A stretch of 47,983 nt of DNA from a virus: the IMG/VR virus record IMGVR_UViG_3300044981_000145, positions 1 through 47,983 of that record; one strand, given 5' to 3'. The notes beneath the pieces were generated by a model. It was given only the letters and a program-made list of their open reading frames with translations, did not search any database and was not told the DNA's origin. The translations under genes and the position numbers were made by a program. This document shows positions 2,982 through 3,127 of the stretch, in pieces. Position 1 is the first letter of the stretch. Every line of letters begins with the position of its first letter.

Positions 2982-3127
2982 CTTGACGTTAAGTCGCACA
3001 GCTTTGTTCCTTCTGCTAGTCCCCCGTCGATGTGGGGGACCTAGGGTTTGAACCTAGATGAGGCTTTCGCCTCACTTCCTTATCAGGGAAGTTGCATTTG
3101 CCATGTAAGCTGAACAGAAACGCCAAG
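2982..3127 (-). ncRNA. Permuted tRNA-like RNA with long variable arm, unit 2
   Basis: Minus-strand order: anticodon-type arm CTTCC-CTGATAA-GGAAG (3075-3091), long variable-type hairpin TGAGGC-GAAA-GCCTCA (3059-3074), T arm CTAGG-TTCAAAC-CCTAG (3041-3057), acceptor 3' strand GTCCCCC (3034-3040), 8-base cap (3026-3033), acceptor 5' strand GGGGGAC (3019-3025), then a D-arm start TAGCAGAAGG. The acceptor helix is perfect over 7 bp. The break lies in the D loop, whose two sides lead into inner helix CAGC/GCTG and outer helix CTTGGCGTT/AACGTCAAG (one G-U). A class II shape combined with anticodon-position GAT is not a normal tRNA identity, which argues for mimicry rather than decoding. Confidence 0.6.

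Follow-up and report, generated by a model that had tools for sequence, protein, structure and literature searches.

A probable phage-encoded Y RNA carrying a permuted tRNA-like module within a tandem array

What kind of RNA is encoded where the arms of a tRNA appear in the wrong order, with the anticodon arm retained and the acceptor stem closed by a loop? Such a locus lies at 2985-3127 in the IMG/VR virus contig IMGVR_UViG_3300044981_000145, whose 47,983 nt are referred to here as the window. Bacterial Y RNAs, partners of the Ro60 protein, provide the most useful frame of reference; most knowledge of them comes from a small number of bacteria, where they mimic tRNA but have no anticodon arm. 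Their representative YrlA comprises a basal stem that tethers Rsr and a tRNA-like domain that binds PNPase (PMC8394870), and its superposition on tRNA reveals a circular permutation (PMC11472068). More generally, the Ro60 ring is bound by the basal stem of bacterial Y RNA and PNPase by its tRNA-like domain, the D and T loops of this domain carry tRNA-type modifications, and a role as competitive inhibitor of anticodon nuclease has been proposed (PMC8394870, PMC7790460). Our preferred explanation, with a probability of roughly 0.85, is that the phage encodes a Y RNA at this locus (unit U2), a relative of bacterial YrlA that displays a permuted tRNA mimic on a Ro60-docking stem. Other features of the window include an N6/N4 DNA methyltransferase fused to a ParB N-terminal domain (44988-46280, minus strand), a phage-contig ice-binding-like protein (11444-12682, plus strand; Pfam PF11999, E 6.5e-52), and, at the contig end (1-160), low-complexity CCTCCGCCG/CCCTCGCCG repeats.

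A tRNA-like module enclosed by a paired stem

U2 is the middle of three tandem units and is encoded on the minus strand, reading from 3127 to 2985 (Table 1). Unconstrained folding of this strand gave a minimum free energy (MFE) of -53.3 kcal/mol (z -3.9), a value equaled by none of 200 shuffles. Each arm proposed in the sequence-only reading appears in the MFE fold: the T arm, the long variable hairpin, the anticodon-type arm, the perfect 7-bp acceptor helix with its 8-base loop (GTCCCCC-ACATCGAC-GGGGGAC, without CCA), and a D stem of 3 bp (TGC/GCA) with an open loop that marks the break. When the module was joined end to end, ARAGORN recognized a tRNA for 117 of the 156 trims, almost invariably as tRNA-Ile(gat), and a coarser rotation test returned tRNA-Ile(gat) in 16 of 28. 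The linear sequence of U2 gave no ARAGORN tRNA call, nor did any of 1000 rotated dinucleotide shuffles each of U2 and U3. The proposal of a permuted tRNA-like RNA thus holds, as does the association of a GAT anticodon, specific for Ile, with a class II-type variable hairpin.

Table 1. Coordinates of the three units, their parts and the adjacent gene in the window
Feature	Coordinates	Strand	Description or basis
Unit U2	2985..3127	-	Probable phage Y RNA with permuted class II-type tRNA module, anticodon GAT, D-loop break
U2 Y stem P1, 5' strand GGCGTT	3119..3124	-	Pairs with 2985-2990; alignment covariation
U2 internal-loop strand TCTGTT, P2 5' strand CAGCT and conserved TACATG	3102..3118	-	Alignment A3, model R1
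U2 anticodon-type arm ACTTCC-CTGATAA-GGAAGT	3074..3092	-	MFE fold; ARAGORN on rotated sequence
U2 anticodon GAT	3082-3084	-	Within loop CTGATAA
U2 long variable hairpin GAGGC-GAAA-GCCTC	3060..3073	-	MFE fold
U2 T arm CTAGG-TTCAAAC-CCTAG	3041..3057	-	MFE fold; motif scan
U2 acceptor stem GTCCCCC/GGGGGAC, loop ACATCGAC	3019..3040	-	MFE fold; motif scan
U2 D stem, 5' strand GCA	3014..3016	-	Paired with TGC 3094-3096; MFE fold
U2 P2 3' strand AAGCTG, GACTT motif and P1 3' strand AACGTC	2985..3004	-	Alignment A3, model R1
Unit U1	3137..3262	-	Y stem CCCGCT/AGCGGG around intact tRNA-Met(CAT); R1 E 2.5e-14
U1 tRNA-Met(CAT) with encoded CCA	3162-3238	-	ARAGORN; Rfam tRNA 62.1 bits
Unit U3	2849..2977	-	Probable Y RNA with permuted tRNA-Leu(TAG), variable-arm break; R1 E 1.2e-6
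Ro60-like N-terminal fragment, about 139 of about 490 residues	2381..2821	-	Identity to relatives; profile A5

The flanks of U2 (3124-3102 and 3004-2985), absent from the earlier description, base-pair together, and the unconstrained fold includes a basal stem of GGCGTT/AACGTC plus CAGCTT/AAGCTG. This stem is laid out as P1, an internal loop (YACTGRR/GACTT), P2 and then TTACATG; a whole unit reads P1, a YACTGRR-like loop, P2, TTACATG, the module, P2, NNN, GACTT and P1. An identical flank arrangement encloses U1, U2 and U3, and all stems are intact in the three units. A descriptor of the layout found three matches in the window, all at this array, as against one in 200 whole-window shuffles. 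TTACATG was also considered as an upstream promoter, a reading that was dropped because, in each unit, the 5' flank is paired with the 3' flank of that unit.

Conservation of the stem was evaluated in related phages. Across an alignment of 30 stems, mostly selected by a descriptor that takes pairing into account, double changes occur at 6 of 6 P1 pairs (all compensatory) and at 4 of 5 P2 pairs, and the covariation score is 0.786 compared with 0.187 in shuffles. Given that selection, a pairing-blind test is cleaner: among 33 units whose TACAYG and GACTY sites were selected irrespective of pairing, 28 form all six P1 pairs with their own partner, as compared with 4% with swapped partners. A covariance model (R1), trained on 22 units from other phages with the window excluded, matches exactly three sites in the window, namely U2 (61.3 bits, E 1.4e-16), U1 and U3, these E-values and those in Table 1 being rough because the calibration was short. 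By fold, covariation and R1, the 5' and 3' ends of U2 pair into a conserved basal stem whose loop holds a complete tRNA-like module; the module's own ends are fused by the acceptor loop, and its tRNA order is therefore circularly permuted. Inspection of the U2 junction revealed no bulge-helix-bulge splice motif, the flanks consisting of the 6-bp P1, a P2 of about 5 bp and a long internal loop.

The neighboring units differ in what the stem encloses. The module of U1 is a tRNA in normal order, not permuted, and its outer edges are mature tRNA ends including CCA. U3 is indeed broken elsewhere than U2, as had been claimed: its break lies in the variable arm, its acceptor is closed by GCAA, and its rotated sequence is called Leu(tag) by ARAGORN. 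The idea that permutation is selected for its topology is supported by these data. Neither outcome that would have refuted the tRNA-like reading occurred: the rotated sequence is called a tRNA, and the pairings are conserved by covariation. The picture of a free permuted tRNA did not survive, as the break in U2 is the insertion point of a conserved Ro60-type Y stem, a canonical tRNA-Met sits in a matching stem, and relatives attach the stem at many points of the tRNA.

The Ro60-like gene and the diversity of units among relatives

Directly downstream of the three units, ORF 2381-2821(-) encodes a protein with 49-58% identity to five full-length proteins, and it matches profile A5 (E 1.2e-57) over positions 2-139 of 493; the window retains only the N-terminal third of this Ro60-like protein. 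The gene is cut off at about residue 139, where a short tail of unrelated sequence follows, and the genes flanking it are syntenic with those of relatives that lack the whole module. In relatives, the array-adjacent protein is predicted to have the full-length Ro60 fold. The modeled structure (mean pLDDT 79) aligns with human Ro60 (Z 20.1, 434 residues) and with D. radiodurans Rsr (Z 19.8, 437 residues), and the top 13 Foldseek matches are all Ro60/TROVE. Pfam TROVE does not match the protein, and a sequence profile search of solved structures missed Ro60, which was detected by fold comparison.

The association of gene and array was approached from both sides. In all six phages found by the DNA pattern alone (L012, L013, L014, L015, L017 and L019), the Ro-like gene adjoins the array. 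A search with the Ro-like protein alone yielded 67 viral contigs; removal of most duplicates left 52 tested loci, including two cellular genome assemblies and one annotated huge phage, of which 49 by our own count carry at least one unit at an R1 E-value of 1e-3 or below. Where arrays are present at these loci, nearly all units share the strand of the gene and lie upstream of it at a distance of no more than about 2 kb. Similar arrays thus occur in about 50 other uncultured phages, almost always immediately upstream of a Ro60-fold gene. The neighboring gene is the decisive evidence for Y RNA identity, and because a Ro60-fold gene accompanies the arrays, RNAs of the U1-U3 type are in all likelihood the Y RNAs belonging to a divergent Ro60 family.

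Several further observations concern the distribution of these genes. Among annotated phage records the Ro-like subfamily is represented by only one, a 595-kb uncultured phage, in which R1 detects no array within the 13.5-kb stretch covered. The nearest annotated phages by DNA showed matches to ordinary tRNAs only, and no matches were returned when viral contigs were scanned with a pattern based on the TCTG variant of the window. A second phage type encodes a Pfam-recognizable Ro60 with TROVE and vWA_Ro60 domains (L020 808-2391; L016 1250-2160) and also has an array of TTACATG-type units, in which the stem motif differs slightly. The window also encodes a VWA-domain protein with a DRSSSM motif (4894-5658, minus strand), which is kept in relatives without Y RNAs. 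A split Ro60 made up of the N-terminal fragment and this ORF was rejected, since the VWA gene is conserved in L006-L011, which have no Y RNAs, and is unlike the Ro-like VWA region.

Heuristic classes based on ARAGORN offsets place 47 of 85 distinct units among those that rotate into a recognizable tRNA. The stem enters these at the acceptor or tRNA ends (18), the anticodon arm (15), the variable arm (9) or the D arm (5, including U2); at least three further phages (L012 at 10933, L015, L019) have D-loop breaks resembling that of U2. Variable-arm entries carry mostly Leu or Ser anticodons, so the stem in such cases, for example U3, replaces or extends the long variable arm. About 38 of the 85 units contain no recognizable tRNA, and some are bare stems of 60-75 nt within arrays (L003 4250-4319; L031 4053-4118; L035 3597-3661; L083 7262-7330 and 7342-7412). 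Acceptor closures also differ: many modules have tight tetraloops (GCAA, GAAA) without CCA, some have loops of 8-16 nt with ACCA-like sequence, and in several relatives the acceptor loop retains ACCA.

In ten further cases the Y stem sits as a closed hairpin within a tRNA of normal order, and CCA is encoded in most of them (L004 5370-5482; L005 5588-5712; L013 2860-2976; L032 4590-4701; L033 3542-3659 and 3734-3847; L034 3845-3963; L035 3915-4034; L047 4010-4130 and 4139-4259). Some of these have an anticodon loop with CAU and a non-U at position 33, or with UCA. Internal-hairpin tRNAs are the circle of the permuted units opened at the acceptor rather than at the stem, and U1, with its intact tRNA-Met in the stem, is intermediate between the two.

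By analogy with bacterial Y RNAs, the basal stem of U2 would be the docking site for a Ro60-like protein. We infer that the RNA ends must sit in this Ro-binding stem and that the acceptor is for this reason closed by a loop, the tRNA being permuted because its ends lie in the stem. The Ro60-like partner is presumed to be the protein encoded beside the arrays in relatives; for the window, it might come from the host or a co-infecting phage. Because the Ro-like gene of the window is truncated, its RNAs may depend on an outside Ro protein or may be decaying. The module would be displayed as a tRNA mimic and, its acceptor being closed, would not be aminoacylated. It could engage tRNA-binding proteins such as PNPase, as in the RYPER complex of bacterial Y RNAs. 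An alternative target, suggested by the full anticodon arm of U2, would be an anticodon nuclease or a modification enzyme, for which U2 would act as tether or decoy.

Alternative explanations for the permuted module

The rotated sequences of U2 and U3 are both recognized as tRNA by ARAGORN, which is also expected of a true circularly permuted tRNA gene of the type found in red algae and some archaea. Here the transcript would be cut at both flanks, circularized by an endonuclease and a ligase and then opened at the acceptor to give a working tRNA, with the flanking helices as splicing signal. The mature ends with CCA at the module edges of U1, the ACCA at the acceptor loop of several relatives, and the relatives with a stem hairpin inside a normal-order tRNA with CCA would all agree with such processing. 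Against it, the flanks correspond to those of arrays associated with Ro60-fold genes and not to a bulge-helix-bulge, many acceptors are closed by tetraloops without CCA, and about 38 of 85 units lack a recognizable tRNA or are bare stems. RtcB was found in none of 32 array phage records and an Rnl2-type ligase was clear in two; as these records may be partial and the enzymes could come from the host, this absence weakens the splicing reading only to a degree. We regard a working permuted tRNA gene as very unlikely. A reading of the flanks as halves of a permuted mini-intron was dropped given that Rfam YrlA matched sister units and that Ro60-fold genes flank the arrays.

The longer acceptor loops with ACCA-like sequence would also suit a two-piece tRNA, in which RNase P and 3' nucleases open the loop to give a nicked tRNA that could still be charged and whose pieces the Y stem would keep together. 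Two-piece tmRNA, cited in PMC10085705, supplies a precedent. The corresponding loops in the window, ACATCGAC without CCA in U2 and GCAA in U3, do not fit, and neither ARAGORN nor Rfam calls a tmRNA, nor is there a tag-type reading frame, within the window; this outcome is highly improbable. The truncated Ro-like gene suggests that the locus may be a remnant, and hence a chance tRNA-like arrangement or a functionless, decaying cluster of tRNA genes. With the stems of all three units intact, a fold far from chance, and an arrangement conserved in dozens of phages, covariation and synteny contradict this view, which is barely credible. Distinct from these is the unlikely proposal of a single circular design of tRNA and Y stem, opened either at the stem, as in U2, or at the acceptor, as in the internal-hairpin tRNAs, some members of which would be excised or matured into working or suppressor tRNAs controlled by the Ro60-like ring. 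If true, the Y stem would be a movable module for tRNA maturation or tRNA capture and not a fixed mimic. A Y RNA related to YrlA remains our preferred reading of U2.

Relationship to bacterial Y RNAs and other tRNA-like systems

U2 belongs to a large, mostly undescribed set of virus RNAs, as dozens of uncultured phages contain tandem Y RNA arrays that are missed by the Rfam cut-off and are not linked to Ro60 by Pfam TROVE. It is unusual in these RNAs that the anticodon arm is kept and that the attachment point of the stem varies along the tRNA. No account of Y RNAs that bear anticodons and are variously attached was found in the literature searched, in which coverage of the key bacterial Y RNA papers was incomplete. 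Because the units vary in the tRNA copied and in the entry point of the Ro stem, the purpose of the tRNA part, whether PNPase recruitment, anticodon nuclease decoy or tRNA source, is directly testable. The arrays also provide a naturally occurring set in which a single RNA fold is circularly permuted in different ways.

Among known systems, permuted tRNA genes (Cyanidioschyzon, archaea) share with U2 a 3' half placed before the 5' half and a short loop joining the acceptor ends. In contrast, the flanks of U2 form a Y stem and not a bulge-helix-bulge, and U2-type units occur in phages whose hosts are presumed to be bacteria. A permuted tRNA-like domain in a bacterial-type RNA is likewise present in two-piece (permuted) tmRNA, whereas U2 has no tag-coding segment and a different flanking structure. 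The array protein shares its complete fold with Ro60/Rsr (TROVE-VWA), including the Ro60 of Thermus phage phiLo (PDB 9L5Y), but is only about 14-16% identical over the aligned length and has no Pfam TROVE match, and the window itself keeps just the N-terminal third.

The closest relative is YrlA (RF02553; Salmonella, PDB 6CU1), which, like U2, has a basal stem made by its ends and a permuted tRNA-like module and, like the phage arrays, is encoded with a Ro60-family gene (PMC8394870, PMC11472068). The Rfam YrlA model matches sister units (49 bits in L012), always below its gathering score of 69. In the window it gives 27.9 bits over the full model for U3, a partial match of 14.6 bits for U1 and no match for U2, so that none of the three attains the curated 69 bits; as it also weakly matches 9 of 14 control genomes, these matches alone are a hint. 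The YrlA order of T arm, closed acceptor and D arm is present in U2 and U3 and not in U1. YrlA itself is described as having only D, T and acceptor arms (PMC8394870), whereas U2 and U3 have complete anticodon arms, and in U2 a long variable arm is added and the stem enters the D loop. Unlike YrlA, the phage arrays reach up to 7 units, with attachment points that vary and scores below Rfam gathering; in common with bacterial Y RNAs, the ends of U2 form a conserved basal stem next to a Ro60-family gene, which is full-length in relatives and an N-terminal fragment in the window.
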